In this document: positions 2,590 to 17,976 of the stretch, piece after piece
Layout of the letters: every line of letters begins with the position of its first letter
Position numbering within the stretch: position 1 is the stretch's first letter
Assembly: GCA_026390575.1 (NCBI GenBank)
Contig: JAPLFR010000007.1
Location: forward strand, 1 to 64,000
DNA from: Ignavibacteriales bacterium
GTDB taxonomy: Bacteria > Bacteroidota > Ignavibacteria > UBA10030
Length of the DNA stretch: 64,000 bases
Reading direction: 5' to 3'
Notes under the pieces: model-generated
Told to the model about the DNA's origin: nothing
Database searches by the model: none
What the model saw: the letters and a program-made list of their open reading frames with translations, nothing else
Position numbers and translations under genes: made by a program

Positions 2590-2747
2590 GCCTAACGGAC
2601 CGGCGCTAAGCTGCGGCGCTGATAACTTTCAACATGCAGCCAGCGAAGTGAGTTCACGCTGATAATTTTATTATTAAGAACGAAACCGTTACTCGCCATG
2701 TTTAACGTACCCAGCTGGCAACCGTCAGCTTGAGCGCCTGGTTAGGG
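2590..2747 (-). other. attC site of cassette C21
   Basis: 158 bp, GCCTAAC (2590-2596) to GTTAGGG (2741-2747). The GGG variant matches the other end of its cassette (CCCTAAC at 3183-3189), as expected for an intact cassette. Confidence 0.95.
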
Positions 2748-2755
2748 CGCACAAA

Positions 2756-3154: not shown

Positions 3155-3182
3155 ACTTCCCACCTTTGCTATTGTTTGTGCG

Positions 3183-3338
3183 CCCTAACGGATGGCGCAT
3201 AAGCTGCACCGCTGATAACTTTCAATATTCACAAAACGAAACGAGTTCATGCTAAATGGTTACTATTAAGAACAAGACCTATGCTCGCCATGCTTAACGT
3301 ACCACGCTCATCGTGTCAGCTTGATGCGCTGGTTAGGC
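3183..3338 (-). other. attC site of cassette C20
   Basis: 156 bp, CCCTAAC (3183-3189) to GTTAGGC (3332-3338). Arms are the GCGCAT/ATGCGC variant, changed on both sides. Confidence 0.93.
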
Positions 3339-3351
3339 GGCTATCTCCATT

Positions 3352-3867
3352 CTAAAATAATTTATCTTTCTGAAAGAGCCTTAACCGTGTCGAGTCATCT
3401 AGGCTGTTAAGATACTTCTTCAATTGAACTGTGTCACCTTTTTGACTTAACAGTTCTCTCTTGAAATGGTAACCTTGAATGTTTGATGGATCAATTGTAA
3501 TGGCATTGTTAAGATCTGCCAATGATGCGTTAGGATCAGCTCGGTGCAACATTCGGTCCAACGCTCTGCCTATGTATGCAATCGCCAGAGACTTCGCAGT
3601 CAATTCTATGTACTTTGATAAATCTGCCTCTAGGGGCACTGGATTGGATGTTTTGTTAGCTATAAGGGCTCTTTCAAGGTGTGCCTGAGCATTGGTAGAA
3701 TCAAGCTCAATCGCATGATTGAAATTGCTAACGGCTTGATCGTATTTATGGTTTATCACATCAGTCCGGCCAGCCTGGAGAAAATCATCACTACTGCGCG
3801 AACATCCCGAAGCAATTATAACTGCAAGCGCAAAGAATAATTGAGAAATAATGATTTTTAGTTTCAT
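3352..3867 (-). CDS. TPR-repeat lipoprotein (cassette C20)
   Basis: 171 residues. Lipobox IIASGC near residue 22 marks a lipoprotein. The mature region carries tetratricopeptide-like repeats: AGRTDVINHKYDQAVSNFNH, followed by AIELDSTNAQAHLERALIAN and AITIDPSNIQGYHFKRELL. TPR lipoproteins usually hold protein complexes together at the envelope. ATG at 3867 has AGAGG about 7 nt upstream. Single gene of its cassette, with no partner in the neighbouring cassettes. Confidence 0.82.
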   Translation of the reverse strand: MKLKIIISQLFFALAVIIASGCSRSSDDFLQAGRTDVINHKYDQAVSNFNHAIELDSTNAQAHLERALIANKTSNPVPLEADLSKYIELTAKSLAIAYIGRALDRMLHRADPNASLADLNNAITIDPSNIQGYHFKRELLSQKGDTVQLKKYLNSLDDSTRLRLFQKDKLF

Positions 3868-3907
3868 GATAACCTCTTGTGGTGATAGATTAAAATGTTT
3901 ATTAGCC

Positions 3908-4065
3908 GCCTAACGGACCGGCGCTAAGCTGCGGCGCTGATAAATTTTAAGTTGCTGAATACGAAATGAGTTCATGCTGAAAAAGAAATTAATAAGACTA
4001 AAACCTATGCGCGCCATGCTTAACGTACTCAGCTGGCAACAGTCAGCTTGAGCGCCGGGTTAGGC
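3908..4065 (-). other. attC site of cassette C19
   Basis: 158 bp, GCCTAAC (3908-3914) to GTTAGGC (4059-4065), arms GGCGCT/AGCGCC. Short type. Confidence 0.95.
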
Positions 4066-4073
4066 GGCTACAG

Positions 4074-4805
4074 TTACTTTATGAATAACATAGCCTTAGA
4101 AAGAGATATACTCTGAGTCTTAAGGATATAAAAATAAATTCCACTACAACAACCATGTGCATTCCAGATGAGGGAATGAGGTCCCATTGGTAATTCTTTG
4201 TCGATCAATTTGTTGATAACTCGTCCATGCACGTCGCAAACGATCATGGAAACATGAGTTCGCGCTGGTAAATAAAATGAAATTTGAGTGGATGGATTAA
4301 ATGGATTGGGATAATTTTGATAGAGAATATAATTTGAAGGTAGCGATATTGGATTATCGACATTTGATGGAATCTCATTAATAAGCATGATAGTCATCAA
4401 TGGTCTGTTCAACGAATTATTGTAAAATACGAGTGAATCCGATTGAGCTGCATTGTTAACGGAAAGTTTCGTGACCGGAGGCATATACTGAAAAATAAAC
4501 AACGCGGAATCAGATGGAAGTATAGTAGTCCGGGAATTTATTCTAAACTGATACCTAAGATTCCCAATCTTCTTGACGCTGTCATGAGAGCTTACAGAGA
4601 AAAGATAATTTCGATAAGAAGAACTGAATATTTGTACTGAGTCTATCGATAGTGTGCGAGTGCCGGAATTGTACACATGTATAGTATCAATAAACTTTGG
4701 ATAAAACGGATATTTCGATGGAAAATTGAGCGTGTCTTTTGATAAAGTTACGATTTGCCCAAAAGACACTGTTGTATACAGGAGGATAGCAAAAGCTGTT
4801 TTCAT
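4074..4805 (-). CDS. T9SS-sorted secreted protein (cassette C19)
   Basis: About 243 residues. Signal peptide MKTAFAILLYTTVSFGQ. The middle part has an Ig-like/DUF1573-like pattern (DTIHVYNSGTRTLSIDSVQI). The C-terminal ~80 residues are a T9SS type A sorting domain: LYQNYPNPFNPSTQISFYLP, then VHGRVINKLIDKEL, ending CSGIYFYILKTQ..AMLFIK. The protein should cross the outer membrane by T9SS and stay on the surface or be released. The ATG at 4805 places the signal peptide at the N-terminus; an in-frame GTG at 4820 is the alternative. Encoded in a mobile cassette, so its export depends on the host T9SS. Confidence 0.85.
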   Translation of the reverse strand: MKTAFAILLYTTVSFGQIVTLSKDTLNFPSKYPFYPKFIDTIHVYNSGTRTLSIDSVQIFSSSYRNYLFSVSSHDSVKKIGNLRYQFRINSRTTILPSDSALFIFQYMPPVTKLSVNNAAQSDSLVFYNNSLNRPLMTIMLINEIPSNVDNPISLPSNYILYQNYPNPFNPSTQISFYLPARTHVSMIVCDVHGRVINKLIDKELPMGPHSLIWNAHGCCSGIYFYILKTQSISLSKAMLFIK

Positions 4806-4835
4806 TTTATTCACATCCACAAAATTAATGTAGCC

Positions 4836-4993
4836 GCCTAACGGACAGGCGCTAAGCTGCGGCGTTGATAAGTATCAACATGCACCCAAGGAAGTGAGTT
4901 CATACTGAAAGAGAAATTATTAAGACTAAAATCTATACTCGCCATGCGTAACGTACCCAGCTGGCAACCGTCAGCTTGAGCGCCTGGTTAGGC
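4836..4993 (-). other. attC site of cassette C18
   Basis: 158 bp, GCCTAAC (4836-4842) to GTTAGGC (4987-4993), arms GGCGCT/AGCGCC. Short type. Confidence 0.95.
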
Positions 4994-4996
4994 CGC

Positions 4997-5296
4997 TTAC
5001 TTTAATTTCAATTTGGGAATGTCTTTAAGCATATGTAAAATGGAATCTGGTAATATATGCTGCAATGAATCATTCCAAAATAATGTTTTCTGGTTTGGTA
5101 TCGATTTGCCGCCGACCATTGGCATATGATCTCGATTTCCCTTTTCAATGGGAGTTATTTGTATAAAGTAATACTGCCCATTGAATGGAACTTTAGTAAT
5201 AATATTCAATGATGAAGTGTCTTTCTGTTTTTCCTCACCAGTACATAAAGAAATGCTATTAATAAGTGTTACAAGAACAAAAGCGATATACTTCAT
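4997..5296 (-). CDS. Small exported protein (cassette C18)
   Basis: 99 residues with an N-terminal hydrophobic signal (MKYIAFVLVTLINSISLC). The Cys at 18 could be a lipidation site, although SLC is a poor lipobox. The remainder is polar and Lys-rich at the end (KDIPKLKLK). AAGGAT lies about 8 nt before the ATG at 5296. No family recognised. Only 3 bp separate the stop from the attC core, so the cassette is tightly packed. Confidence 0.7.
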   Translation of the reverse strand: MKYIAFVLVTLINSISLCTGEEKQKDTSSLNIITKVPFNGQYYFIQITPIEKGNRDHMPMVGGKSIPNQKTLFWNDSLQHILPDSILHMLKDIPKLKLK

Positions 5297-5318
5297 AATT
5301 TATCCTTTCAGTAAGCGG

Positions 5319-5476
5319 CCTAACGGACTGCGCATAAGCTGCGGCGTTGATAAGTTTCGTGATGCAACCAACGAAATGAGTTCATGCTGTATTTTTTTTT
5401 GTTGTTGCACCCGACCGTTACTCGCCATGTTTAACGTACTCAGCTGGCAACCGTCAGCTTGATGCGCTGGTTAGGC
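5319..5476 (-). other. attC site of cassette C17
   Basis: 158 bp, GCCTAAC (5319-5325) to GTTAGGC (5470-5476), GCGCAT/ATGCGC arms. Nearly identical to the attC at 16807-16961, apart from a T-rich stretch in the loop. Confidence 0.94.
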
Positions 5477-5619
5477 CGAAATTATAATTGGTGAACCTTA
5501 CCTGAATTAAAATACAAATCTTTGCAAAGACTTTATCAACTTTAATTTTTCTGACACGGGCAACTTTTTGATGACCGCGATACTTCCCTCAACCACAAAA
5601 AACACACACCGCACGTGCG
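5477..5619 (-). other. Gene-less cassette C17 body
   Basis: 143 bp without a convincing gene. It is almost identical to the body of cassette C4 (16962-17132), which has about 28 extra bases in the middle. Read on the minus strand it starts with GCACGTGCGGTG and ends with a short frame encoding PVSEKLKLIKSLQRFVF then stop, shared with C4 and similar to the tail of C5. It could be a decayed gene, a tiny peptide, or a regulatory or RNA cassette. Confidence 0.75.
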
Positions 5620-5850
5620 GCCTAACGGAACGCGGCTAAGCTGCCGCGTGACCTGCCTGCGTGCCGTAGGCACTACGGCAGGCAGGCCAATTTAAATTAA
5701 CCACAAAACGAAACGAGTTTACGCTAATAACCAAATTTAATTTACTCACCCAACGAGGTACTGAAAAGTTAATTAAATAAACGTCAACCCACCATTCGCA
5801 ATGTAAATTGCTCCCACGCTCATTCGGTCAGCTTGAGCCGCTGGTTAGGC
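5620..5850 (-). other. attC site of cassette C16, with hairpin insertion
   Basis: 231 bp, GCCTAAC (5620-5626) to GTTAGGC (5844-5850), arms GCGGCT/AGCCGC. It is a long-type site with about 35 extra bases at 5652-5686 that form an inverted repeat (CCTGCCTG .. CAGGCAGG). Confidence 0.92.
5652..5686. repeat. Palindromic insertion in attC
   Basis: Inverted repeat CCTGCCTG..CCGTAG / CTACGGCAGGCAGG with a 3-nt loop and a 4-nt bulge, lying between GTGACC and AATTT of an otherwise normal long attC. Its ends match the perfect palindrome at 23810-23829, so it probably belongs to the same short palindromic repeat family. Confidence 0.75.
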
Positions 5851-5866
5851 GGTGCTGGTCGATGAA

Positions 5867-6853
5867 TCACAGAGCAACGATCCAAGATTTCCAACTTTCG
5901 ACGCTGAATCCATAATCTTTATTAGCAAGTTGTACAAGCAAACGATGGGCAACCTGTCGCTCATTCGCACGATTTGCTTTTAGATAAGCCAACAAGAGAT
6001 TACCGCCACCTCGTAATAGCGGTATAGCAAGTTTAGGCGACACTCGGGTATTCGTAAGGATTTCTAAAGTTCCAGTGAATGCGAAGAGATTCGTTCCATC
6101 TAGCAACGAACGAAGTGAAGAAATCACTGGATACCAATCAACTGTACGCGGTGATGTTTTGGCTTGTCCTAGTAAGATACTATTTGCGATTCCTGAGACT
6201 CGACCATCAGGATCACGAAGGGCATCAGAGAGTTCCCACCAAGTTGAATCTACATCAAAAAAATTTGCAAGAACAGCAGATGCAAGAAGACGGTTTTTAT
6301 GATTCCCATCGGATCGCAATGCTCGAAAGGCAATTTGCTGGTCAGCAATGCTATTATATTGTTCAATAGTATTCCAAACTTCTCGAACGATAGCAGAATC
6401 GGCAAAATTACTAACCAAAGAATAAATCGTGTCTACCGATCGTGAGGGATAGAATTGCAAAGCCATGAAGAAATCGTTTTGGTGAGAATTGAATAACTCA
6501 AATGCCTTTGACCACTTTTGAATGAGTGCTAAAGTATCTCGAAAAGGTTCTTTGTATTTAACAAGAGATGAATAACTGGGTTCAACAACAGTGATGATAG
6601 TATAAGGTTTGCCACCATCAAAGAATACACAAACACTAGCGTCAGGAAAACCTAGCTTGAATCGAAGATCAGCTGCACATGCTCCGAATGGCTTATCGGG
6701 TTCAAGTGCTGAGAGAGTGTCGAGTAGCTTCTGAGGAGACCAAGAACTTAATCCGATGAATTCAACTTGACCCTTTGACGTTTGCAATACTTGGGAATAT
6801 GAAATGCTAATCGTGAAGCAAGCAATTGCGAGAACAAGTTTTAATGATTGCAC
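5867..6853 (-). CDS. Exported HEAT-like protein (cassette C16)
   Basis: 328 residues. Signal peptide MQSLKLVLAIACFTISISYS. The C-terminal half is helical with HEAT-like repeats (NRLLASAVLANFF, DALRDPDGRVSGIANSILLG, PLLRGGGNLLLAYLKAN). The N-terminal part (about 20-110) is a mixed fold with two Cys. The first codon is GTG at 6853, backed by AAGGAG about 9 nt upstream, so GTG rather than a later ATG is the likely start. Probably periplasmic or secreted; function unknown. Confidence 0.78.
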   Translation of the reverse strand: MQSLKLVLAIACFTISISYSQVLQTSKGQVEFIGLSSWSPQKLLDTLSALEPDKPFGACAADLRFKLGFPDASVCVFFDGGKPYTIITVVEPSYSSLVKYKEPFRDTLALIQKWSKAFELFNSHQNDFFMALQFYPSRSVDTIYSLVSNFADSAIVREVWNTIEQYNSIADQQIAFRALRSDGNHKNRLLASAVLANFFDVDSTWWELSDALRDPDGRVSGIANSILLGQAKTSPRTVDWYPVISSLRSLLDGTNLFAFTGTLEILTNTRVSPKLAIPLLRGGGNLLLAYLKANRANERQVAHRLLVQLANKDYGFSVESWKSWIVAL

Positions 6854-6880
6854 TTTATTACTCTCCTTTCCACCAGCACC

Positions 6881-7076
6881 GCCTAACGGACCGGCGCTAA
6901 GCTGCGGCGCTGATAATTTTCAAATTGTTGAAAACGAAACGAGTTCATGCTGATAACCAAATTAAATGTTCCCAACCAACGAGGTACTGAAAAGTTAATT
7001 ATAAAAACTTAAACCCACCATTCGCCATGCTTAACGTACCCGGCTGGCAACCGTCGGCTTGAGCGCCTGGTTAGGC
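6881..7076 (-). other. attC site of cassette C15
   Basis: 196 bp, GCCTAAC (6881-6887) to GTTAGGC (7070-7076), GGCGCT/AGCGCC arms. Long type with AACGAGGTACTGAAAAGTTA in the loop. It supplies the stop codon of the C15 gene. Confidence 0.94.
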
Positions 7077-7691
7077 GGGCGTTGATTTATATTGCTCTCC
7101 GAGAGCGATCAACTGACTTTGGATATGAAAAACGATCTCTTCCATCTTCAACTCATCAATGAATATATTGTTATTGTATTTAAACCACTTAAGTACCTCG
7201 CATTTGTCAATATCTTGTAATGCAATACCATTGTGATGAACAATTGAACGACGCAAAATTCTTAGGTCACCCATTACAGTGACAAGTAATGCTTCTTTTT
7301 TTAATCCAAGAGAATTCGCAATTTCAGATCTGTAGTAGTCCTCCCAGTATTGATATATGCTAACAATACACATATTGCCAATAAACTTATAATTGTTCCC
7401 TCCTTTATCATTACGCTGCTTGTATTCACCTTGAGTGCATCGATGCAAAATCACCGAACCGGGGAGATTAGGATTGCCTTTTCCGTACATGAAATCAATA
7501 GAATCAAGGTGCTCAATTGTCATTAATTCGGGAGAATCTTTAAAGAGCGATAGAGATTTTTGTTGACCCTCGATAAATTCTTTCCTAACAGTATAAAATC
7601 CTCTGATCGAATCGAGATAAACACCGTAAATAGAATGAACAACGTCAAGAAATTGTTCGATCGAAGCATTTATATTTTCAAATGTTTCCAT
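7071..7691 (-). CDS. Possible HEPN-fold protein (cassette C15)
   Basis: About 206 residues, soluble and helical. The segment GDLRILRRSIVHHNGIALQD (near residue 150) fits the R-x4-6-H signature of HEPN-type nucleases and their relatives, and flanking helices are consistent, but the assignment rests on this motif alone. The ATG at 7691 is preferred; an upstream in-frame ATG at 7763 lies inside the neighbouring attC. The stop codon TAA is part of the attC core (GCC TAA C). No Shine-Dalgarno is visible. If HEPN, an RNase or RNA-binding role in defence or toxin-antitoxin biology is possible. Confidence 0.72.
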   Translation of the reverse strand: METFENINASIEQFLDVVHSIYGVYLDSIRGFYTVRKEFIEGQQKSLSLFKDSPELMTIEHLDSIDFMYGKGNPNLPGSVILHRCTQGEYKQRNDKGGNNYKFIGNMCIVSIYQYWEDYYRSEIANSLGLKKEALLVTVMGDLRILRRSIVHHNGIALQDIDKCEVLKWFKYNNNIFIDELKMEEIVFHIQSQLIALGEQYKSTPA

Positions 7692-7709
7692 ATATGATAA
7701 ATCTAGCCC

Positions 7710-7943
7710 GCCTAACGGACTGCAACTAAGCTGCAGCGTGACCAATTTTCTATTTGCACCCACCGAAACAAGTTCATGCTATAAACCAAATTAATACGTA
7801 TCAAAGTTATAGGTACTAAGAACTGAATAATAAAAATGATAACCCACCACCAGCCATGCTTAACGTACTAGCCCGCCGACAATTGCTTTTTAGAAATGCC
7901 GGCGGGCGACGCTCATCTCGTCAGCTTGAGTTGCTGGTTATGC
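7710..7943 (-). other. attC site of cassette C14, with hairpin insertion
   Basis: 234 bp, GCCTAAC (7710-7716) to GTTATGC (7937-7943). Arms GCAACT/AGTTGC are a unique, fully compensated pair. Long type plus a 37-bp palindromic insertion at 7871-7907. Confidence 0.92.
7871..7907. repeat. 37-bp palindromic insertion in attC
   Basis: GCCCGCCG (7871-7878) and CGGCGGGC (7900-7907) flank ACAATTGCTTTTTAG. The same 37-bp element sits in the attC at 9547-9740 (9668-9704) at the same relative place. Confidence 0.85.
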
Positions 7944-8188
7944 CAAACAACTTTCAATGTACTTCCAGTGGTCGAAACACAGAGACCGATATTCTCAATA
8001 TGCACTCAACGCAATAGATTGTTGCGCGTGCGGTGCGCTTTTTAATAACTGCACCCCACTTTCCAAGAACGATGCCATTTTTGAAAACGTAACTCTACTT
8101 TTTATATCCACCTCGATGAGCGGAAGTGAACCCTCAAAGTATTTTGGAACTTGCCCTGAAAAACAATTTTATGCGCACCGTGCGCGCG
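7944..8188 (-). pseudogene. Cassette C14 body: IR-bounded module, no intact gene
   Basis: Contains a 164-bp module (8024-8187) bounded by GCGCGTGCGGTGCGC (8024-8038) and GCGCACCGTGCGCGC (8173-8187). It aligns without gaps to a 164-bp module in C5 (16642-16805). C5 has an open frame through the module, but the matching frame here is broken by stops. A plus-strand frame of 83 codons runs into the next attC and is not convincing. Either a decayed relative of the C5 gene or a non-coding element whose ends matter more than its coding capacity. Confidence 0.55.
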
Positions 8189-8347
8189 GCATAACGGACT
8201 GCGGCTAAGCTGCCGCGTGACCAACTTTCAAAATACACAAAACGAAACAAGTTCATGCTGAATACTTTATTATTAAGAACCAGAACCTCTGCTCGCCATG
8301 CTTAACGTACCCACGCTCATCCGGTCAGCTTGAGCCGATGGTTAGGT
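8189..8347 (-). other. attC site of cassette C13
   Basis: 159 bp, GCATAAC (8189-8195) to GTTAGGT (8341-8347), arms CGGCT/AGCCG. The GGT variant matches ACCTAAC at the far end of its cassette (9547-9553). Confidence 0.93.
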
Positions 8348-8360
8348 GGCGTTTGCATGG

Positions 8361-9497
8361 TTATTCATCATAGTCGGCAGATTTTAAAAATCTAGAAAAT
8401 TGACGCAAATGTTCGCCAAGCTGTTTGTCGACTTCAACAGAGGTTCCTTCCCGACGGATAAGCCCAGACTTAGAAAATTTCTTTACTAGTTCAACGCGTT
8501 CCTCTTGAACATACACACGACGATATGCGTCTTCGTTACTAACTGAAACAGCGCTAGGTGAATGAACAATCATATTTCTTAAATTAGATCTATCTGGTTG
8601 ATCAAGGGCAGATCGAAGTTGAGACTTATTAGAAATCATTTTTATCAAAGAACGGATGGGTTCTATACCATCAACAAGAAAAGAATCAAGAAAGATGGAG
8701 TCCGTATCGACAATAGAAGACTTATAAATATCCTTATATTTTTCGACCAAAGAAACCCTCTTTCGTTTTTTTCGCCTGTCGGCAGCATCCGAAAATGGTA
8801 AAACAATACCAAACGCGACAAACAAAATGAGAATTATTAAAGCTATTGGATAAGCGAGAATGCGGACAAGTTGCATTAATAGACCACCCCTAAATGAATC
8901 AGTCCAGAAATTAGACTCAGTCTTTTCTTGGAAGGATTTTGTGATTTGGATGTTATCCATACCAGCAATCTTACCCATAGGTAGAAGAGACGGAGATTTT
9001 GAAGCATCGTGAATAATTAGGAGCTTGAGAGAAATAAACTTATCTCTTTCGAGAATAACTTTTTCAAAAAATACTGAGTCAGGTGCGTGAATGGTTGGCT
9101 TTAAATCAGTACGGAGGTAGTCAGAATTTGATTCGAGTGGATTTGCCTCAATAATACGTCCATCGGTTATTCGGAATCCCCATGGTTTTGTTTGATCAAA
9201 CATCGGTTGTGTTATATCTACTTGGCCGACGTTTGAAACCTTTATAGTAAAGATGCGAAGATTAAGTCCCTTTTGACTAATATTATCCCCGTCAAATAAA
9301 ATCGAAAGTTTCCCGAGTTGTTCTCTGACCTCAAGAACATTTGCTTCACTGACTATGTCAAATTGAATGGCGGGCTTTTTCTCATAGACCAATGCGATGT
9401 ATACCGCGACAATAATAGAAACCACGCCAACAATTGAACCTACAAATGACCAGGCAAATTTTCTGTCTAGCTGTGCAAATTCTTTCCAAAACGACAT
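8361..9497 (-). CDS. Two-pass membrane protein of unknown function (cassette C13)
   Basis: 378 residues. TM1 at about 16-37 (FVGSIVGVVSIIVAVYIALV), a ~170-residue region that should be extracytoplasmic, TM2 at about 210-235 (LVRILAYPIALIILILFVAF), a basic stretch RRKKRKR, then a cytoplasmic helical C-terminus. Layout suggests a sensor or signalling-like protein, but no domain is recognised. Strong Shine-Dalgarno AGGAGG before the ATG at 9497 supports the start and suggests efficient translation once transcribed. One of the larger cassette genes. Confidence 0.78.
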   Translation of the reverse strand: MSFWKEFAQLDRKFAWSFVGSIVGVVSIIVAVYIALVYEKKPAIQFDIVSEANVLEVREQLGKLSILFDGDNISQKGLNLRIFTIKVSNVGQVDITQPMFDQTKPWGFRITDGRIIEANPLESNSDYLRTDLKPTIHAPDSVFFEKVILERDKFISLKLLIIHDASKSPSLLPMGKIAGMDNIQITKSFQEKTESNFWTDSFRGGLLMQLVRILAYPIALIILILFVAFGIVLPFSDAADRRKKRKRVSLVEKYKDIYKSSIVDTDSIFLDSFLVDGIEPIRSLIKMISNKSQLRSALDQPDRSNLRNMIVHSPSAVSVSNEDAYRRVYVQEERVELVKKFSKSGLIRREGTSVEVDKQLGEHLRQFSRFLKSADYDE

Positions 9498-9546
9498 AGT
9501 TAGCCTCCTTTGATTAATTTCTTATATCGATGCTCTTTCAAACGCC

Positions 9547-9740
9547 ACCTAACGGACTGGCGCTAAGCTGCGGCGTTGATAAGTTTCAAGTTGCTGAAAA
9601 CGAAATGAGTTCACACTGATAGCCTTCAATATGTACTAAACCGTTACGAGCCATGCTTAACGTACAAGCCCGCCGACAATTGCTTTTTAGTAAAGCCGGC
9701 GGGCGACGCTCATTCCGTCGGCTTGAGCGCCTGGTTAGGC
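9547..9740 (-). other. attC site of cassette C12, with hairpin insertion
   Basis: 194 bp, ACCTAAC (9547-9553) to GTTAGGC (9734-9740), GGCGCT/AGCGCC arms. Short type plus the 37-bp palindromic element at 9668-9704. Confidence 0.93.
9668..9704. repeat. 37-bp palindromic insertion in attC
   Basis: GCCCGCCG (9668-9675) pairs with CGGCGGGC (9697-9704). Differs only at a few loop bases from the copy at 7871-7907. Confidence 0.85.
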
Positions 9741-9745
9741 AACCG

Positions 9746-10537
9746 CTATTTTTCAGTATTTAATAATTTGTATTTACTAAGTTTATACTTAAAAATTGGG
9801 AATAATTCTCCAAAAATAGAAACCACATTTTTTCTTGCTGATGTTTCAAATGTAAGGAGCAAAGGTTTTATTTTTGTGAGTTGACCCTTCCACAGCAAAG
9901 ATAATATTCTAGGATGGATAACAGGATGGTCATGTTCCTGAAGGAAAGTATAAGAATTAAGTTCTATATAACGTTCTTCATCAACTAGGTCTACAAAACC
10001 TGATTCTTCTCCTCTATGGAGAAAGCGATGACGCCGAGAAATATGTGGATCTAATGTTTTCCTCAATTGTCGGAGTGACTTGACCAAGTCCGAACCTGCT
10101 ATCCATTTATGTTGCGTAATTATCTCGAATGTACAAAACCGTGGCGACAAACCAAGTTCGTATACTTCAGCTGAAAGCATGAGCATGCAATCAAGAATAC
10201 TTGCCATCGAGGTTGTGTAAACAAAGAAATGATAATCTGTCCAGTCTCTGCGCCCATTAGAATTATCTTTTGTTAAAAAACCTTTGGGTGAACGATTAAT
10301 TAGATATTGTGAATAACGAATTCTATCGAAAACCTTTATTAGGTTTGATGCATTATTAAAAACGTCAGTAACATACAGTTCACCTTGGTTTAATCGAGAG
10401 CGATTTGTTCTGCGCCATTCCTTATATTTTTCTTCATCCTCCGGAATACCTGATGCACCTGCCTTAGTGATTGGATGAAATATATCAAGTAATAATTTAA
10501 AAAAAGGTTGAGCAACTATTTCAGTTGATTTATCCAT
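9746..10537 (-). CDS. Possible Cthe_2314-like HEPN protein (cassette C12)
   Basis: 263 residues, soluble and helical. RRHRFLHRGEE (near residue 170) is an R-x4-H motif preceded by a long helix (LVKSLRQLRKTLDPHI), as in HEPN-fold families. It also has DWTDYHFFVYTTSMASILDCMLML as a core helix. Resemblance to the Cthe_2314-like HEPN group is from recall only. ATG at 10537, no clear Shine-Dalgarno. Single gene of its cassette; no adjacent MNT partner, so a toxin-antitoxin pair is not evident. Confidence 0.72.
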   Translation of the reverse strand: MDKSTEIVAQPFFKLLLDIFHPITKAGASGIPEDEEKYKEWRRTNRSRLNQGELYVTDVFNNASNLIKVFDRIRYSQYLINRSPKGFLTKDNSNGRRDWTDYHFFVYTTSMASILDCMLMLSAEVYELGLSPRFCTFEIITQHKWIAGSDLVKSLRQLRKTLDPHISRRHRFLHRGEESGFVDLVDEERYIELNSYTFLQEHDHPVIHPRILSLLWKGQLTKIKPLLLTFETSARKNVVSIFGELFPIFKYKLSKYKLLNTEK

Positions 10538-10550
10538 GTTTTTAGCGGTT

Positions 10551-10747
10551 GCCTAACGGACTGCGGCTAAGCTGACCGCGTGACCAATTTTAATGTTACA
10601 CAAAACGAAATGAGTTCATGCTGATAACAAAATTAAATTTACTCAACCAATGAGGTACTAAAAAGCTACTTATGAAAACTTAAATCCACCATTAGCCATG
10701 TAAATTGTTCCCACGCTCATCCGGTCAGCTTGAGCCGCTGGTTAGGC
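10551..10747 (-). other. attC site of cassette C11
   Basis: 197 bp, GCCTAAC (10551-10557) to GTTAGGC (10741-10747), arms GCGGCT/AGCCGC. Long type. Confidence 0.94.
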
Positions 10748-10812
10748 GGCGCATAGTGTATTGTTTTTGACAAATATTACGATCTACACAATTACAAACA
10801 AATGGTTAAGCA

Positions 10813-11127
10813 CTATTTGTGCAATAAATGATACGTGAGTTCAAGAATCGCAACCTCAAGCAGGAAAATAAATATTGATATAGGCCAACCGTGAACTTCT
10901 GCCGTGAGATAACAGAATATGCCAAATCCAAAAATGAATACTGGATATGCGTAACCATCTACACGAGTACGTATCTCTTTTTGGAGACTAAAGTTTCTTT
11001 TTGATTTCTCATTCAACTGGCGGTTACAATCATCGCAAATGTAACTTGTGAAAACCATTTCTCGATTACAGACATCACACTGTAACTTACCTTTTACTTG
11101 AACTGGAATTTCAGTTTGCGAAGCCAT
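10813..11127 (-). CDS. Zinc-ribbon membrane protein (cassette C11)
   Basis: 104 residues. N-terminal zinc ribbon CDVCNREMVFTSYICDDCNR (two CxxC pairs, about residues 17-36) in the cytoplasm, then a basic linker and two membrane helices (about 60-78 and 82-100). No enzyme motif. ATG at 11127 without clear ribosome binding site. About 65 bp of AT-rich sequence separates the stop from its attC. Function unknown. Confidence 0.72.
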   Translation of the reverse strand: MASQTEIPVQVKGKLQCDVCNREMVFTSYICDDCNRQLNEKSKRNFSLQKEIRTRVDGYAYPVFIFGFGIFCYLTAEVHGWPISIFIFLLEVAILELTYHLLHK

Positions 11128-11174
11128 CTGATTTCGTCCAATCGTGTGAATACGATCCTTGTATTATTTGCGCC

Positions 11175-11332
11175 GCCTAACGGACTGGCGCTAAGCTGCG
11201 GCGCTGAAAAGTTTCAACATGCACCCAGCGAAGTGAGTTCATGCTGAAAAAGAAATTATTAAGAACGAAACCTATGCACGCCATGATTAACGTACCCAGC
11301 TGGCAACCGTCAGCTTGAGCGCCTGGTTAGGG
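11175..11332 (-). other. attC site of cassette C10
   Basis: 158 bp, GCCTAAC (11175-11181) to GTTAGGG (11326-11332), GGCGCT/AGCGCC arms. Short type. Confidence 0.95.
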
Positions 11333-11389
11333 CGCAAGCACCAACGACTCTTGAATTAAAAGTTTTGTGCCAGAAAAGAGAAAAATATT

Positions 11390-11668
11390 ATGAGACGAAT
11401 AGATTATCATGTTGCAATGAAAGATGATATTACAATTAAAGAATTGGTTGGGTTACTTAAATGGATAATAAATAGTCCAATCTGGGCTTATCCTCGCACA
11501 TCCAAATTCAACCAATTACCCGAAAACATAAAACGCCATGTAGAGATAAAATATCATCAAATAGATGAGCCGAAATTGAAAAAACTGTCCGGTTCATTTT
11601 ACAATAAGGACAATGCATTGACAAGCGAAACCGACGAGAAGCAAACACATGCCAGAATTGTACCATGA
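11390..11668 (+). CDS. Possible reversed cassette gene (C10)
   Basis: 92 residues on the plus strand, opposite to all other cassette genes: MRRIDYHVAMKDDITIKELV and then PIWAYPRTSKFNQLPENIKR. Purine-rich AGAAAAGAG lies about 10 nt before the ATG. No minus-strand frame of comparable length is seen in this 538-bp cassette. A second overlapping plus-strand frame (11649-11876) ends on a stop formed by the next attC and may be a frame-shifted continuation or chance. Being antisense to the array, it would need its own promoter. No family recognised. Confidence 0.5.
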   Translation: MRRIDYHVAMKDDITIKELVGLLKWIINSPIWAYPRTSKFNQLPENIKRHVEIKYHQIDEPKLKKLSGSFYNKDNALTSETDEKQTHARIVP

Positions 11669-11870
11669 GTTACTTTTATCATACTTTACCTTTTCTATGG
11701 GCATAATATCTCAATTCCTATCAAACTCTAAGTATGACGGAACAAATTTCCAGAGAATCAATGAACCGACAATATTCAAAAACAATCCGACAACATTTAG
11801 GATGATTGAAATACAGGGTTGCATATTTTTACCCTTTCAATTAAGAGGCACAAAACTTTGTTTGCTTGCG

Positions 11871-12028
11871 CCCTAACGGACTGGCGCTAAGCTGCGGCGC
11901 TGAAAAGTTTCAACATGCACCCAGAGAAGTGAGTTCATGCTGAAAAAGAAATTATTAAGACTAAAACCTATACACGCCATGCGTAACGTACCCGGCTGGC
12001 AACCGTCAGCTTGAGCGCCTGGTTAGGG
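11871..12028 (-). other. attC site of cassette C9
   Basis: 158 bp, CCCTAAC (11871-11877) to GTTAGGG (12022-12028), GGCGCT/AGCGCC arms. Short type. Confidence 0.95.
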
Positions 12029-12093
12029 CGCACATAAATGAAATAGAAAACCATATTGCAAAGAAGGCACAATGAAACTTAAATACCTTGACT

Positions 12094-12591
12094 TTATTTG
12101 CAAATCCTTTGATCCAATCGTTTTGCATATGTTTGCAGGTCGATGGAATCAGAAGTGCCAACCATACGAATATGAACGACTATTGACTTACGAACGAATG
12201 CAAGGTCTCCATTATCGTTCAATGGAACTCCAAGAAGTTCAGGTGTTAATGCGTGAGAAATAACTTGAGCACATTGTTCACCGATTGTTTTAACCGATTC
12301 TACAGATCGTTTGTACAAATCGTCTTCTTCACTCTGGCCGAAACCAGATACAATGATTGAAAAAGATTTCTTAGCCGTATCATTGTCAGAGCAAATAAAT
12401 AACGCAATACCACCAGCAATTTCACCTTTGAAGGCAAGTTGCTGGTAAATGCTCACCTCAGGTTTTGGCAGTTCAGAAAACATTGCCGGGACTTCATCAC
12501 GGATTTGTCCACCTGCAAATCCAACTGGTAAATCGCCGGGCTGAATAAGAAGCGATTCAAGCTGATCGTAGGTAAATTGTAACTGAGGCAT
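12094..12591 (-). CDS. Conserved-looking soluble protein (cassette C9)
   Basis: 165 residues, no signal or membrane segment. Mixed alpha/beta, with strands such as GGIALFICSD and KSIVVHIRMVG. Strong AGGAGG about 8 nt before the ATG at 12591. About 65 bp separates the stop from the attC. No family recognised from sequence. A short plus-strand frame over the same bases is treated as a shadow. Confidence 0.75.
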   Translation of the reverse strand: MPQLQFTYDQLESLLIQPGDLPVGFAGGQIRDEVPAMFSELPKPEVSIYQQLAFKGEIAGGIALFICSDNDTAKKSFSIIVSGFGQSEEDDLYKRSVESVKTIGEQCAQVISHALTPELLGVPLNDNGDLAFVRKSIVVHIRMVGTSDSIDLQTYAKRLDQRICK

Positions 12592-12623
12592 TATTATTCC
12601 TCCTGTGAATTATTTTGCGTGCG

Positions 12624-12820
12624 CCCTAACGGACTGCGGCTAAGCTGCCGCGTGACCAATTTTCAAATTGCACCAAACGAAATAAGTTCATGCTGATAAC
12701 CAAATTCATCTGCACTCAACCAACGAGGCACTGAAAAGTTAATAATAAAAACGTCAACCCACCATTAGCCATGTTAATTGCTCCCACGCTCATACGGTCA
12801 GCTTGAGCCGCTGGTTAGGC
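12624..12820 (-). other. attC site of cassette C8
   Basis: 197 bp, CCCTAAC (12624-12630) to GTTAGGC (12814-12820), GCGGCT/AGCCGC arms. Long type. Supplies the stop codon of the C8 gene. Confidence 0.94.
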
Positions 12821-13258
12821 AGCCTGAACTTCTATTCCTTTTGATTTCGCTAAATCAATTATTTTCAGTTTGATTTCTCTGAGATGTTGAAATGTTAAAT
12901 TGCCAAGATAAACATTGGATGGCTCGCCGGATTTCGCATAGATTTTTAAATTGAATAGACTTACTTCGATTTTTGCGATGTTCTCCCATCTATGCAAAAT
13001 ATTCTTCGGTGTACTAATAGGTCCCTCGATACCGGTCTCATCAAACGAAAATAATTTTGGTTTATAAAACCAACGGTAACCAATTGCAAAGACAATTGCA
13101 CCGAAACCAATAAGTATACCTATATATCGAAAGCTATTATCGGACAATATTGCTTGTACAATATTTGAAATACCTATAAGTCCTAATAATGATCTCTGAA
13201 TGAATCTGTTAATAGGTTTTGCAGGTTCAGGTTGTAGATCAATACTGAATTTCTCCAT
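12815..13258 (-). CDS. Small membrane protein with PH-like C-terminus (cassette C8)
   Basis: 147 residues. Two hydrophobic segments (about 26-44 and 49-66) are followed by KLFSFDETGIEGPI .. RWENIAKIEVSLFNLKIYA, a pattern seen in bacterial PH-domain (YcxB/YdbT-like) membrane proteins. ATG at 13258 is chosen over an in-frame TTG at 13270 because GGAG lies 8 nt upstream of the ATG. The TAA stop is inside the attC core. Function unknown; family resemblance moderate. Confidence 0.72.
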   Translation of the reverse strand: MEKFSIDLQPEPAKPINRFIQRSLLGLIGISNIVQAILSDNSFRYIGILIGFGAIVFAIGYRWFYKPKLFSFDETGIEGPISTPKNILHRWENIAKIEVSLFNLKIYAKSGEPSNVYLGNLTFQHLREIKLKIIDLAKSKGIEVQAA

Positions 13259-13286
13259 TGGATTCTCCAATAATTATTTTCAGGCT

Positions 13287-13480
13287 GCCTAACGGATTGG
13301 CGCTAAGCTGCGGCGTGACCAAGCCTCAAATTGCACCAAACGAAACGAGTTTACGCTGAAAACTGAATTAATTACACAAAAAGAACTTAATACTATAAAC
13401 TTACTAATGAAACCAATACCCGTTGCTCGCAATGAATTTTGTAGCACGCTCATTCCGTCAGCTTGAGCGCCTGGTTAGGC
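13287..13480 (-). other. attC site of cassette C7
   Basis: 194 bp, GCCTAAC (13287-13293) to GTTAGGC (13474-13480), GGCGCT/AGCGCC arms. Long type. Supplies the stop codon of the C7 gene. Confidence 0.94.
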
Positions 13481-14023
13481 GGTGCGATTTCTAACTTTAA
13501 AATCTGTGAAATGATTAAAGACATCACCAATACATGTAGTCGCATAAAGGATGTAATTCACAATTCTGTTTAATTCAGAAAGTTCTGCATATTCATACTG
13601 AAACTTTAATCCAGAAGATGCTTTTGATGTTGTCTTCCTTCTGCGAACTTTTTGTGTGGTTGGTTCTAAGTCCCATTGCGAATGTATTAATTTGTTACGC
13701 AACTCTTCTGCCTTTAAACAAACGGAAATAAGTTCAGACAACGCGACTTTTGGGTCATGTTTTCCAAAATTAAATTCTGTATCTGAAAGTCTAAGTTTCA
13801 TAAGAGAAGAAAAAAGATTGATTCGATTTTTAAACGACATTTCGGCTACTATTGATTCAGCCTCGTAATCGTCAACGGTAAGTAAAGATGCGATTGCTAC
13901 AAGTAGCTGAACATCCAGAGAAGAAAAAGCTATAATAGCTCTTCCAAGTATTAGTTCATATTCATCTGGAATAAATGGCCCTGGCGATTCATTGTTTTTA
14001 TATGAATCATACTGGATAAACAT
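13475..14023 (-). CDS. Possible HEPN-fold protein (cassette C7)
   Basis: 182 residues, helical. LKAEELRNKLIHSQW (about residues 108-122) gives the RN-x3-H signature typical of HEPN-related proteins, and the helix IIAFSSLDVQLLVAIASLL fits the first long helix of such folds. Lys/Arg-rich loop QKVRRRKTTSK. AAGGAA lies about 10 nt before the ATG at 14023. The TAA stop is part of the attC core (GCC TAA C). Enzymatic activity cannot be judged from this motif alone. Confidence 0.74.
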   Translation of the reverse strand: MFIQYDSYKNNESPGPFIPDEYELILGRAIIAFSSLDVQLLVAIASLLTVDDYEAESIVAEMSFKNRINLFSSLMKLRLSDTEFNFGKHDPKVALSELISVCLKAEELRNKLIHSQWDLEPTTQKVRRRKTTSKASSGLKFQYEYAELSELNRIVNYILYATTCIGDVFNHFTDFKVRNRTA

Positions 14024-14051
14024 AATTATGATTCCTTATTTCTATCGCACC

Positions 14052-14247
14052 GCCTAACGGATGGGCGCTAAGCTGCGGCATGACCAAACCTCAACATGCA
14101 CCCAACGAAACAAGTTTACGCTGATAACTAAATTATTTGTACCCAACCAACGAGGTACTGAATAGTTAATTATGAAAACCTAAACCCACCGCACGCAATG
14201 CGTAACGTACCCACGCTTATTCCGTCAGCTTGAGAGCCTGGTTAGGG
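14052..14247 (-). other. attC site of cassette C6
   Basis: 196 bp, GCCTAAC (14052-14058) to GTTAGGG (14241-14247). Arms GGCGCT/AGAGCC contain one mismatch, the only clearly imperfect inner arm seen. Long type. Confidence 0.92.
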
Positions 14248-14256
14248 CGCAACAGA

Positions 14257-16386
14257 TTATTTTATAAGCAAAAGTTTCCTTGTTTGTACAAAACTTCCTG
14301 CTTGTATTCGATATATATACACACCACTTGCTAATTTACCCCCATTTAGAATTTTCTCATATCTTCCTAGATTCAAATCCTCGTTCACTAGCGTTGCCAA
14401 CTCTCTACCTAGTAGATCAAAGATTTTCAGTGTGACGAATTCGGAATGTGGAATTTGAAACCTTATTAGCGTGCTTGGATTGAATGGATTCGGATAATTT
14501 TGTGCAAGAAAGAACTTCGTCGGTTCCAATAATGTTTCTTCTACATCGTTTACGTTACTTACACTTTTAAAAAGGCCATGTCTCCAAGTACCGATGTACA
14601 GAGAACCTGATAATGATAAAGCCATACATTGTGTTCGAAGATCGGTCAAGCCTGAATTGATCTGAATCCATGAAATTCCACGGTCTGTCGATTTGTACAC
14701 TCCGTCGTAGCTCGTTGAGACATATAGATCACCTTTAGGATTCTCTACGATGGAAACAATTCCTTGCTGAGCCAATGTTCCCCCTAATCCGGTCCATGTT
14801 AGTCCATCGTCAGTAGATTTGTATATACCAGACGTACCTGCCAAGATTGTTCCATTCATCAGACGATACAAACACGCAACGGAGTTTGATCCTAAACTGA
14901 TCGGAGTCCAAAAATCACCATTATTGGTCGAGCGGAAAACCTGCCCATTAAAACTTCCTGCCAGTAAGGTGCCGGAAGGAGAAGAGATCATCGAAAAAAT
15001 TGTTAGACTTGTTAAACCATTATTAACAGCAACCCACGAACTACCTCTGTCAGTTGAACGAAATATGCCCCCCCAGTAATCTCCCGCAAAGATGGTACCA
15101 GATAATCCCTCCGTAATTGTAAATATTGAGGAAATGTTTAATCCCGTTGAAGATAGCTGCCATGAATTGCCTGTGTCGGTTGATTTAAAGACCTTTTCAC
15201 CCCCTGCATAGATATCTCCATTTATCGACCGGTAAAAACATCGGGTGATCGTATTAGAATTTCCAACCTCCATCTTCGTCCACGTCTGCCCACCATCGGT
15301 TGACCGATGGATATCAGTTTCTTCAGTAAAAGAAAATAGACTGCAAAATACTACATTAGCATTAACTGCGAATACTGCTTCAATATCGGCACTGTGAATA
15401 CCGGTACAACTCTTTATCCAAGTATCACCATTGTCTGTTGATCGAAAAATACCGGCATAATAATTGCCAGCGAGAATGCAGTTTTCATCAGGAATGATCA
15501 ATGCCCTCACATCTCCACTTGTGTAGGGTGGTGAAGCCACGACATCCCAAGTTGTTCCGTGATTGGTAGATCTGAACACCTCGCCCCAACCGCCATTATT
15601 AGTTCCAGTAAACAAGATACCCGTGCTAGATATTACAGATGACGACACATTTCTCATATCATAAACATAATTCGATCGCGGAGTCCATAGATCACCGTTA
15701 TTTGTGGAGACATAAACAGACGGGATTTGGGATACAAAGGCAAGCACACCCCCTATTCCGTCTTCAGCGAATGAAGTCGGCGGAAGATCACTCACTTTTT
15801 GCCAAGTCGAACCATCATCAGTTGAGCGATAAATACTGGGATTAATAGCTGTACAGTAGTCACACGCTGGAGCAATGCTTCCGAAAATAGTTCCGTTGCT
15901 CAGTTTGTATAATATTAGAGCTTTACAATAGCCAAGTTGTTGAGTTCGATTTATCCATGTATTTCCAGTGTCGTCAGATGTATAGACTCCATTATAGTAT
16001 GTTCCAACAATTATTCGACCTGTTCCTGTGACACAGAGTGATTGTACACCTAAACTCTGTAAAGGTGTTTTGTTCCAGTTGTTACCTCCATCAATCGAGC
16101 GATACAGGTTCGAGGCTCCGGCGAACAGAAAACCATTTGATGTGACTGCCAAACAGTTGATATCGTTTCCGGTAAGCCCAATCGAGTTCCATGACTGGCC
16201 TCCATTGGACGAACTATAGATACCTTGATTTGCTGTACCAGCTAGGATTCTGCCAGACGAATCCTTAGCGAATGAAAGTATGAACCCGGAATCATAAGGG
16301 CCATTGGTCTGCTGCCAGAAGTTGGTTTGCGATAAACTCATCGGTGAAAAGAATAATATAATTGAAATAATGACAAATATTTTCAT
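14257..16386 (-). CDS. T9SS-sorted Asp-box beta-propeller protein (cassette C6)
   Basis: 709 residues, the largest cassette gene here. Signal peptide MKIFVIISIILFFSPMSLS. About 13 BNR/Asp-box repeats of about 40-50 residues follow (YRSIDGGNNW, FRSTDNGDTW, HRSTDGGQTW, YKSTDDGLTW and others), the hallmark of sialidase- or photosystem stability factor-like propellers. The C-terminal ~85 residues are a T9SS sorting domain (AQNYPNPFNPSTLIRF, ending VQTRKLLLIK). Expected at the cell surface or outside. No sialidase catalytic Arg triad was identified, so an enzymatic role is not claimed; adhesion or glycan binding is possible. Confidence 0.9.
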   Translation of the reverse strand: MKIFVIISIILFFSPMSLSQTNFWQQTNGPYDSGFILSFAKDSSGRILAGTANQGIYSSSNGGQSWNSIGLTGNDINCLAVTSNGFLFAGASNLYRSIDGGNNWNKTPLQSLGVQSLCVTGTGRIIVGTYYNGVYTSDDTGNTWINRTQQLGYCKALILYKLSNGTIFGSIAPACDYCTAINPSIYRSTDDGSTWQKVSDLPPTSFAEDGIGGVLAFVSQIPSVYVSTNNGDLWTPRSNYVYDMRNVSSSVISSTGILFTGTNNGGWGEVFRSTNHGTTWDVVASPPYTSGDVRALIIPDENCILAGNYYAGIFRSTDNGDTWIKSCTGIHSADIEAVFAVNANVVFCSLFSFTEETDIHRSTDGGQTWTKMEVGNSNTITRCFYRSINGDIYAGGEKVFKSTDTGNSWQLSSTGLNISSIFTITEGLSGTIFAGDYWGGIFRSTDRGSSWVAVNNGLTSLTIFSMISSPSGTLLAGSFNGQVFRSTNNGDFWTPISLGSNSVACLYRLMNGTILAGTSGIYKSTDDGLTWTGLGGTLAQQGIVSIVENPKGDLYVSTSYDGVYKSTDRGISWIQINSGLTDLRTQCMALSLSGSLYIGTWRHGLFKSVSNVNDVEETLLEPTKFFLAQNYPNPFNPSTLIRFQIPHSEFVTLKIFDLLGRELATLVNEDLNLGRYEKILNGGKLASGVYIYRIQAGSFVQTRKLLLIK

Positions 16387-16407
16387 ATGGTTTTCTTTCG
16401 CGTTGCG

Positions 16408-16565
16408 CCCTAACGGACCGGCACTAAGCTGCGGCGTTGAAAAGTTTCGTCATGCAACCAACGAAACAAGTTCCACAACGAAAGTTTTCGCATTTGCACT
16501 CGACCGTTACTCGCCATGTTAATTGCACCCAACTGGCAACCGTCAGCTTGAGTGCCTGGTTAGGC
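16408..16565 (-). other. attC site of cassette C5
   Basis: 158 bp, CCCTAAC (16408-16414) to GTTAGGC (16559-16565). Arms GGCACT/AGTGCC, a compensated variant found only here. Confidence 0.93.
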
Positions 16566-16595
16566 TGAAATTATAATTGATGAATTGTAGTTGAA

Positions 16596-16796
16596 TCAAA
16601 ATACAAATTTTTGCAATAACTTTATCAACTCTAATTTTTCTGACACGGGCGGTGCGTTTAATCTTTGCACAAAACGTTCAAAGAACCACTGCCACTTTTG
16701 AAAACGATACTCGAAAAGTTCTATCCACGCCGATTGGTGGAACAATACTTCCAAATTATTTTTAAATACCAGCAATGAAATAAATTCATTACGCAC
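16596..16796 (-). CDS. Small ORF in IR-bounded cassette C5 (doubtful)
   Basis: 66 codons from a GTG at 16796. Aromatic-rich (HQSAWIELFEYRFQKWQWFF) and ends in PVSEKLELIKLLQKFVF, a tail also encoded, with few changes, in the otherwise gene-less cassettes C4 and C17. It lies largely within a 164-bp module whose ends are inverted repeats (16642-16656 and 16792-16805). No ribosome binding site seen. The conserved tail argues for translation at some time; the broken relative in C14 argues for a dispensable or non-coding module. Confidence 0.42.
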   Translation of the reverse strand: MRNEFISLLVFKNNLEVLFHQSAWIELFEYRFQKWQWFFERFVQRLNAPPVSEKLELIKLLQKFVF

Positions 16797-16805
16797 CGCA
16801 CGTGC
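16642..16805. repeat. 164-bp module with inverted-repeat ends (copy in C5)
   Basis: Ends GACACGGGCGGTGCG and CGCACCGCACGTGC are imperfect inverted repeats. Same length and gap-free similarity as 8024-8187 in C14. Cassettes C4 (17038-17131) and C17 (5553-5618) keep the ends but have shorter interiors. Confidence 0.65.
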
Positions 16806-16806
16806 A

Positions 16807-16961
16807 GCCTAACGGACTGCGCATAAGCTGCGGCGTTGATAAGTTTCGTGATGCAACCAACGAAATGAGTTCATGCTGGATATTTGCATTTGCACCCAGC
16901 CGTTGCTCGCCATGTTTAACGTACTCAGCTGGCAACCGTCAGCTTGATGCGCTGGTTAGGC
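16807..16961 (-). other. attC site of cassette C4
   Basis: 155 bp, GCCTAAC (16807-16813) to GTTAGGC (16955-16961), GCGCAT/ATGCGC arms. Near-duplicate of the attC at 5319-5476. Confidence 0.94.
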
Positions 16962-17132
16962 CGAAATTATAATTGGTGAACCTTACCTGAATTAAAATAC
17001 AAATCTTTGCAAAGACTTTATCAACTTTAATTTTTCTGACACGGGCATACTGCACACCACTTTTATTACAAACAAAACTTTTTGATGACCGCGATACTTC
17101 CCTCAACCACAAAAACACACACCGCACGTGCG
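16962..17132 (-). other. Gene-less cassette C4 body
   Basis: 171 bp, near-identical to cassette C17 (5477-5619) except for about 28 additional bases around 17047-17075. The only long frame runs through the attC and has no family. The short conserved frame SMPVSEKLKLIKSLQRFVF is present. A possible decayed gene, micro-peptide or non-coding cassette. Confidence 0.75.
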
Positions 17133-17291
17133 GCCTAACGGATCGGCGCTAAGCTGCGGCGCTGATAATTTTCAATATACACAAAGCGAAACAAGTTCAC
17201 GCTGAAAAGTTTATTATTAAACATCCAAACCTCTACAAGCCATGCTTATCGCACCCGGCTGGCAACCGTCAGCTTGAGCGCCTGGTTAGGC
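17133..17291 (-). other. attC site of cassette C3
   Basis: 159 bp, GCCTAAC (17133-17139) to GTTAGGC (17285-17291), GGCGCT/AGCGCC arms. Short type. Supplies the stop codon of the C3 gene. Confidence 0.95.
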
Positions 17292-17804
17292 GGGCACAAG
17301 GATAAACATATTTTCTATAATACATTTTTTATCAAGAGACTCAAAACTATGCTCACATTGACAATCGGGAGTGATATAAACAGACAACCTTAAATTGTGA
17401 GATTCAAAATATAGAGAGTACCCTATATCTTCTTCGACATATTTTGGAACTCCGTAGCAATTGACAAATTCTTGAACTGATGAACCAACACCAACGCCCT
17501 CTGCTGTTTTAAAAAAGGAATCTTGAATGTAGACAGATTTTGAACTTGAGGAGCGCGAGAAATGGTGGCCTGATATTGTAATAATCCAAAGTGTATCAAT
17601 AACTCTATCACCTTGATCTGATATTTGATCCCGAGGCAATACTTCAAGTTGATTATTCCCTATCTGACTTTTTATTTCTGCGAGAGTTCCCATGAAATTA
17701 ATGCCATCAATTTCTCGTCTGGCCAAATCAATTTGATTTCCCTGATGTATTAAATTTGAACACCCTTGAAAAATCAGAATGAAAAATAGGAATTTATTTA
17801 TCAT
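17286..17804 (-). CDS. Lipoprotein of unknown function (cassette C3)
   Basis: 172 residues. MINKFLFFILIFQGC is a short lipoprotein-like signal with Cys15. The mature part has EGVGVGSSVQEFVNCYGVP, a pattern common in small periplasmic proteins with SmpA/OmlA-like or copper-binding-like folds, and a C-terminal Cys cluster (CQCEHSF, CIIENMF). ATG at 17804, no clear Shine-Dalgarno. The TAA stop comes from the attC core. No confident family. Confidence 0.72.
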   Translation of the reverse strand: MINKFLFFILIFQGCSNLIHQGNQIDLARREIDGINFMGTLAEIKSQIGNNQLEVLPRDQISDQGDRVIDTLWIITISGHHFSRSSSSKSVYIQDSFFKTAEGVGVGSSVQEFVNCYGVPKYVEEDIGYSLYFESHNLRLSVYITPDCQCEHSFESLDKKCIIENMFILVPA

Positions 17805-17820
17805 AAGTAATTTTGTGCCC

Positions 17821-17976
17821 GCCTAACGGACCGGCGCTAAGCTGCGGCGTTGATAATTTTCAATATGCTGAAAACGAAATGAGTTCACCCTGATAGCCTT
17901 CAAAATATACAAAACCTATGCTCGCCATGCGTAACGTACCCGGCTGGCAACCGTCAGCTTGAGCGCCTGGTTAGGC
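17821..17976 (-). other. attC site of cassette C2
   Basis: 156 bp, GCCTAAC (17821-17827) to GTTAGGC (17970-17976), GGCGCT/AGCGCC arms. Short type. Confidence 0.95.

Follow-up and report, generated by a model that had tools for sequence, protein, structure and literature searches.

The subject of this work is a 64,000-nucleotide stretch of an Ignavibacteriales genome (hereafter, the window), in which an integron lies next to its array of gene cassettes. Integron integrases (IntI) move cassettes through folded attC sites, and cargo of the type IX secretion system (T9SS) carries an N-terminal address for Sec and a C-terminal address for the T9SS. Very probably, the integron of the window is a sedentary chromosomal one, and some of its cassettes hold T9SS cargo genes that would be movable as export-ready units. 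The following components of this reading are established at the level of sequence: (i) the integrase, (ii) the structure of the attC sites, (iii) the cassette borders, (iv) the sorting domains, (v) the PorU and SprA proteins of the host, and (vi) the recurrence of such cassettes in related genomes.

Integron and attC array

The window corresponds to bases 1-64000 of contig C7 in a genome of 3.82 Mb in 16 contigs. The presence of a chromosomal integron with true cassettes is confirmed by the predicted integrase and the attC array:

21878..22837, plus strand: integron integrase IntI, ATG start at 21878, TIGR02249 match of 442 bits (cut-off 265); the array is divergent
113..20044, minus strand: array of 24 attC sites with cassettes C1-C24, defined by coordinates, structure, covariation, and model R1

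The attC sites of this array are 156-235 nt long (n=24). One common structure with R''/R' and L''/L' pairing fits 24/24 sites, and standard pairs occupy 96.8% of 504 cells. Two-sided changes that keep the pair were observed in 30 cells, as compared with 7.8 +/- 2.1 in shuffles and 0 to 7 in slid controls, and column 17 of the attC alignment is unpaired within the stem, matching the expected extrahelical base. Only a weak core-like stretch was found near 21801 beside intI, where attI was looked for. Base 1 of the window is base 1 of contig C7, and the array extends beyond this contig end.

The covariance model built from the 24 sites (R1) has 76 matches in the own genome, where arrays of the same type also terminate contigs C1, C15, and C16. 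A strict attC finder, which misses other attC types, recovers 21 of the 24 known sites and gives 0 matches in the 42 kb of the window outside the array and 0 in 210 kb of shuffled sequence. The search of window positions 1-24000 against Rfam yielded no matches.

Cassettes C6 and C19 and the secretion system of the host

Two members of the array, C6 and C19, are confirmed as integron cassettes whose predicted products carry a C-terminal T9SS sorting domain. Their open reading frames (ORFs) and borders are as follows:

16408..16566, minus strand: attC of C5, the upstream border of C6 (142.8 bits)
14257..16386, minus strand: C6 ORF, 709 aa, with a signal-peptide-like N-terminus, 13 Asp-boxes, and a T9SS type A sorting domain
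14269..14496, minus strand: stretch coding for the C6 sorting domain (TIGR04183 search of the genome)
14052..14248, minus strand: attC of C6, right behind the stop codon (144.2 bits)
4836..4994, minus strand: attC of C18, the upstream border of C19 (176.2 bits)
4074..4820, minus strand: C19 ORF, 248 aa, with a probable signal peptide, a body without detectable relatives, and a T9SS type A sorting domain
4095..4313, minus strand: stretch coding for the C19 sorting domain (TIGR04183, 24.4 bits in the genome search)
3908..4066, minus strand: attC of C19 (170.2 bits)

A preliminary description of this DNA had assigned to both proteins a signal peptide and a T9SS sorting domain, and to C6 a propeller with 13 Asp-box repeats. 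The sorting domains are borne out: both proteins contain NYPNPFNPST and exceed the TIGR04183 cut-off of 23 (44.0 bits for C6 and 23.1 bits for C19). Against PF18962 (gathering score 27) they score 30.6 and 22.8 bits, respectively. The distance from the stop codon to the own attC is 8-9 nt in both cassettes. Exactly 13 S-x-D-x-G-x-x-W-like boxes were counted in C6, spaced mostly by 38-51 residues, and the same protein matches the Sortilin-Vps10 (86 bits) and BNR (27.6 bits) profiles. As for the signal peptides, the N-terminus of C6 is clearly signal-peptide-like and is called by a crude rule; in C19, the N-terminal sequence MKTAFAILLYTTVSFGQ looks plausible on inspection, but the rule calls no signal peptide from either start, the second being an internal ATG at 4805. 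Single-sequence structure models are unusable for both C6 (mean pLDDT 32.6) and C19 (mean pLDDT 38.6). Sequence matches of C6 to solved BNR proteins are weak; C19 gave no match to solved structures, and a search of 60 related genomes detected no relative of its body.

These cassettes had been expected to sit in a T9SS host, and this is what we found. The encoded proteins are T9SS cargo by sequence, and the genome encodes both a sortase, PorU (964 bits), and a translocon, SprA (774 bits), so a cognate export system is present. TIGR04183 has 101 matches in the same genome.

Cargo cassettes in related genomes

The comparison set included 61 genomes, namely the own genome (G000) and 60 relatives; the genus set comprised G000 and its five congeners (G001-G005). 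R1 had matches in 33 of the 61 genomes. Array regions were taken from each of the congeners as well as from further families of the same order, and attC sites were located with R1 and a structural finder. All open frames in these loci were searched with a locally built sorting-domain profile, and the candidates were then checked with TIGR04183. A cargo cassette was considered confirmed if its gene matched TIGR04183 and had its stop codon no more than 40 nt ahead of an attC on the same strand.

Among 76 sorting-domain frames in the loci of this search, 25 stop at most 40 nt before a same-strand attC; when the stops were placed at random in 2000 trials, this number averaged 1.2 and never exceeded 6. 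Two further candidates (L224 and L247) came from repeats. TIGR04183 confirmed 24 of the resulting 27 candidates, distributed over 8 genomes and 5 families: 4 in G000, 6 in G003, 5 in G004, 3 in G036, 2 each in G040 and G088, and 1 each in G010 and G343. The three others (L169:8122-8514, L224:5811-6221, and L247:2232-2720) were dropped as not confirmed by TIGR04183. Genes located 80-187 nt before an attC (L005, L104, L105, L106, L121, L137, and L164:10252) were not counted; four of these, L005, L104, L121, and L137, pass TIGR04183, including the sorting-domain gene of the Calditrichia bacterium JANQQU010000033.1 (L005; 46.4 bits), which lies 123 nt before an attC. The counts also leave out a 6.3-kb interval on C8 that lies between attC sites and holds two sorting-domain ORFs and others.

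The distance from stop codon to attC is uniformly 5-30 nt for the cargo genes; in the own genome, 29 of 53 non-cargo cassette ORFs also stop -20 to 40 nt from an attC. The preliminary description had proposed this search, with an absence of sorting domains from the cassettes of relatives as a sign of mis-assembly, and their presence in 8 genomes is the opposite outcome. Mis-assembly or mis-binning that placed chromosomal cargo genes into the array is thereby largely refuted, and we consider it highly improbable: the arrays are indeed repeat-rich, and contigs C7, C1, C15, and C16 all terminate in attC arrays, but the 24 confirmed cases share the same narrow spacing to attC, and one of the 8 genomes, G088, is assembled as a single 4.5-Mb contig, which makes such an artifact an unlikely cause. 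The same pairing of cassette and sorting domain in relatives suggests that ready-made surface proteins can form part of the integron cargo in T9SS hosts.

Types of cargo and their origin

Asp-box propellers, with 6-14 boxes each, account for 10 of the 27 candidates, and C6 has abundant relatives, which occur in each of the 61 genomes. Another recurrent type is a family of ~310-aa proteins (L085, L120, L164, and L168), which occurs in cassettes of G000, G004, G036, and G040 from families f1, f6, and f5. A search of 14 genomes gave 9 matches to the L085 body, 4 of them within attC-bordered cassettes of f1, f5, and f6.

A tree was built from those 52 of the 76 sorting-domain frames that had at least 80 bits and at least 65 aligned residues, leaving out the group located 80-187 nt from attC. 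In this weakly resolved tree, the cassette sorting domains are mixed among the chromosomal ones (14 label changes versus a mean of 17 after shuffling, with 51 of 500 shuffles as low), and the nearest neighbors of the C6 sorting domain are cassette-borne ones in G003 and G004. Several independent captures of cargo genes are only suggested by such a poorly resolved tree.

One cassette of G036 encodes a protein related to the translocon itself. This cassette (L154:3075-4121, contig C68) lies between attC sites at 2916-3047 and 4148-4279, and its 348-aa lipoprotein-like product matches positions 388-588 of SprA/Sov by residues 146-344 (101 bits). A stand-alone relative of this protein is encoded in G054 (L248:5707-6765) without attC nearby.

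Frequency of cargo cassettes

For the genus, the expected number of cargo cassettes was calculated from the share of sorting-domain genes in each genome at an assumed 0.87 genes per kb, with the attC-to-attC interval as the unit. By the strict count, 11 of 189 intervals in G000-G005 hold a cargo gene versus ~5.6 expected (p = 0.03, given the assumed gene density); by a looser criterion, the count is 15/189 (p = 0.0005). The strict cases come from G000 (4/61, with 1.85 expected), G003 (4/30), and G004 (3/51). The other well-sampled genome besides the genus, G036, is near background, with 3 of 81 cassettes versus 2.85 expected. In a survey of the phylum, an integrase scored over the cut-off in 105 of 395 genomes, and 77 integrase regions, many of them reaching contig edges, were picked from the matches. 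Confirmed cargo cassettes were found in 2 of these 77 regions (3 genes), among ~167 candidate intervals on the expected strand, with 43 on the control strand; these phylum-wide numbers are rough because the relaxed attC finder carries background. By the crude export rule, signal peptides are no commoner in cassette ORFs (25/49) than in chromosomal ORFs (12/23), so an enrichment of exported proteins in cassettes is not supported. Cargo cassettes are thus regular, but at most modestly, and at borderline significance, more frequent than the gene make-up of the host predicts.

These counts bear on an explanation to which we give an even chance, namely that integrons sample neutrally: cassettes would be made from any genes of the host lineage, integrons would not be specially tied to surface display, and some cassettes would carry cargo because ~3% of host genes are T9SS cargo. 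The values for G036 and for G000 (not far above expectation), the few confirmed genes in the wider phylum, the scattering of cassette sorting domains in the tree, and the lack of an excess of export signals over chromosomal ORFs are all consistent with it. The roughly two-fold excess across the genus argues in the opposite direction, as do the cargo types that recur in cassettes from more than one bacterial family and the proximity of the C6 sorting domain to cassette-borne ones of two congeners. The earlier proposal that the cassette pool is adapted to the phylum is only partly supported: cargo cassettes recur in relatives, with a borderline excess in the genus (p = 0.03) and a near-background count in G036, and the pool may simply reflect the genes of its hosts.

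Proposed mechanism and its assessment

In the mechanism that we propose, the substrate recognized by IntI would be the bottom strand of attC in its folded form, and individual cassettes could be cut out or inserted whole. Those with cargo would each consist of one ORF with a signal peptide at the 5' end, a sorting domain at the 3' end, and a stop codon directly before attC, so that the export-ready gene would move whole, as one piece. The product would be (i) exported by Sec, (ii) recognized by the T9SS via its C-terminal domain, (iii) passed through SprA, (iv) cut by PorU, and (v) anchored or released. The cargo would be drawn from the large T9SS proteome of the hosts, with a few families, such as the Asp-box propellers and the ~310-aa proteins, captured or circulating repeatedly. 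A surface trait delivered by such a cassette needs a T9SS host, which would confine its usefulness to bacteria with this secretion system.

Several observations weigh against the integron as a carrier of functional T9SS cargo. The C19 protein is barely over the TIGR04183 cut-off and under that of PF18962, and the crude rule does not call a signal peptide in it. C6 and C19 begin 21 and 15 nt behind the preceding attC, respectively, with no space for a promoter of their own, and would therefore depend on transcription from upstream or within an attC. The open frame of the G088 copy at L202:7809-8018 spans just 69 aa, and this copy is probably a remnant. The excess of cargo cassettes over background is small, and the strict count is zero in three congeners (0/29 in G001, 0/2 in G002, and 0/16 in G005). 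Recombination activity, transcription, export, and surface display of the cargo cassettes are inferred.

The lack of promoter room, the position of C19 as the nineteenth cassette counted from the integrase, and the decayed look of some array members would also fit an array of silent storage, in which the sorting domains are relics and C6 and C19 are neither expressed nor exported. We find this rather doubtful, since most confirmed cases are intact long frames with a start, a signal-like N-terminus, and a complete sorting domain, and C6 has kept 13 regular Asp-boxes over 709 aa. At the other extreme, the integron could be a device for shuffling surface display in Bacteroidota-type hosts, with a lineage-restricted pool of export-ready cassettes for T9SS cargo (Asp-box propellers, the L085-type family, orphan bodies joined to a sorting domain as in C19, and even the G036 lipoprotein with the SprA segment) captured, reordered, and exchanged by IntI; this broader reading seems unlikely to us.

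Other features of the array and its neighborhood

The two cassettes nearest to the integrase (18008-19873 and 20569-21546) encode a UvrD/GajB-like helicase (PADLOC GajB, 5e-38) and a Cas4-like PD-(D/E)XK protein (8e-11), which are possibly defense genes in adjacent cassettes. C12 (9746-10537) encodes a 263-aa protein of the Cthe_2314-like HEPN family (PF18730, 31.7 bits). Three short cassettes without a convincing ORF, C17 (5318-5626), C5 (16408-16813), and C4 (16807-17139), have inner sequences that are 83-96% alike and similar attC sites. Very similar cassettes for a TPR lipoprotein occur in two array pieces of the own genome (window 3352-3867 and L085:8649-9191), which suggests cassette duplication.

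Beside intI, the region 22965-24000 contains a Y1 transposase ORF (23261-23791, PF01797) flanked by many copies of a 36-nt repeat of the GGACTCTAC type and looks like a REP/RAYT-type unit. The attC of cassette C16 includes a GCCTGCCTGCCG...GGCAGG-like palindrome (5655-5690), and ORFs at other loci of the genome (L087:9202-9456 and L088:16374-19064) apparently contain similar sequence as part of their reading frame.

Relation to known systems and implications

The integron described here resembles the sedentary chromosomal integrons of the Vibrio, Xanthomonas, and Treponema type in its IntI, its divergent array, its numerous long attC sites, which resemble one another and have covarying stems, and its mostly single-ORF promoterless cassettes; it differs from them in the cargo cassettes whose products end in a T9SS sorting domain. 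To our knowledge, the best-described integrons belong to hosts without a T9SS. The cargo itself is of the usual T9SS type A (TIGR04183/PF18962), with an N-terminal signal-like segment, a C-terminal NYPNPFNPST...YFY domain, and PorU and SprA in the host, whereas the location of its gene inside an attC-bordered cassette is different.

Exported products of cassettes have been reported: signal peptides occur in 10-30% of integron cassettes (PMC8618304) and in 11-14% of cassettes from macroalgal biofilm and seawater (PMC10963911). The relevant passages of these two sources concern signal peptides and name no C-terminal secretion-system address. Complete integrons of the Bacteroidetes/Chlorobi group (Chlorobi, Ignavibacteriae, and Salinibacter) are on record from IntegronFinder 2.0 (PMC9024848), in the corresponding part of which the cassette cargo is not discussed. 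The integron and the secretion route are each standard; the link between them may be new, as no report of T9SS cargo in cassettes was found among the open-access papers listed for integrons or gene cassettes together with T9SS or sorting domains.

This link joins gene capture by integrons with type IX secretion, both of which are well studied. A cassette with a built-in secretion address could hand a surface trait to a recipient in one step, provided that the recipient has a T9SS, and this need would set the functional host range of the cassettes beyond the compatibility of attC and IntI. Cargo cassettes may also serve as marker genes for following cassette exchange in a phylum whose integron cargo is little described.

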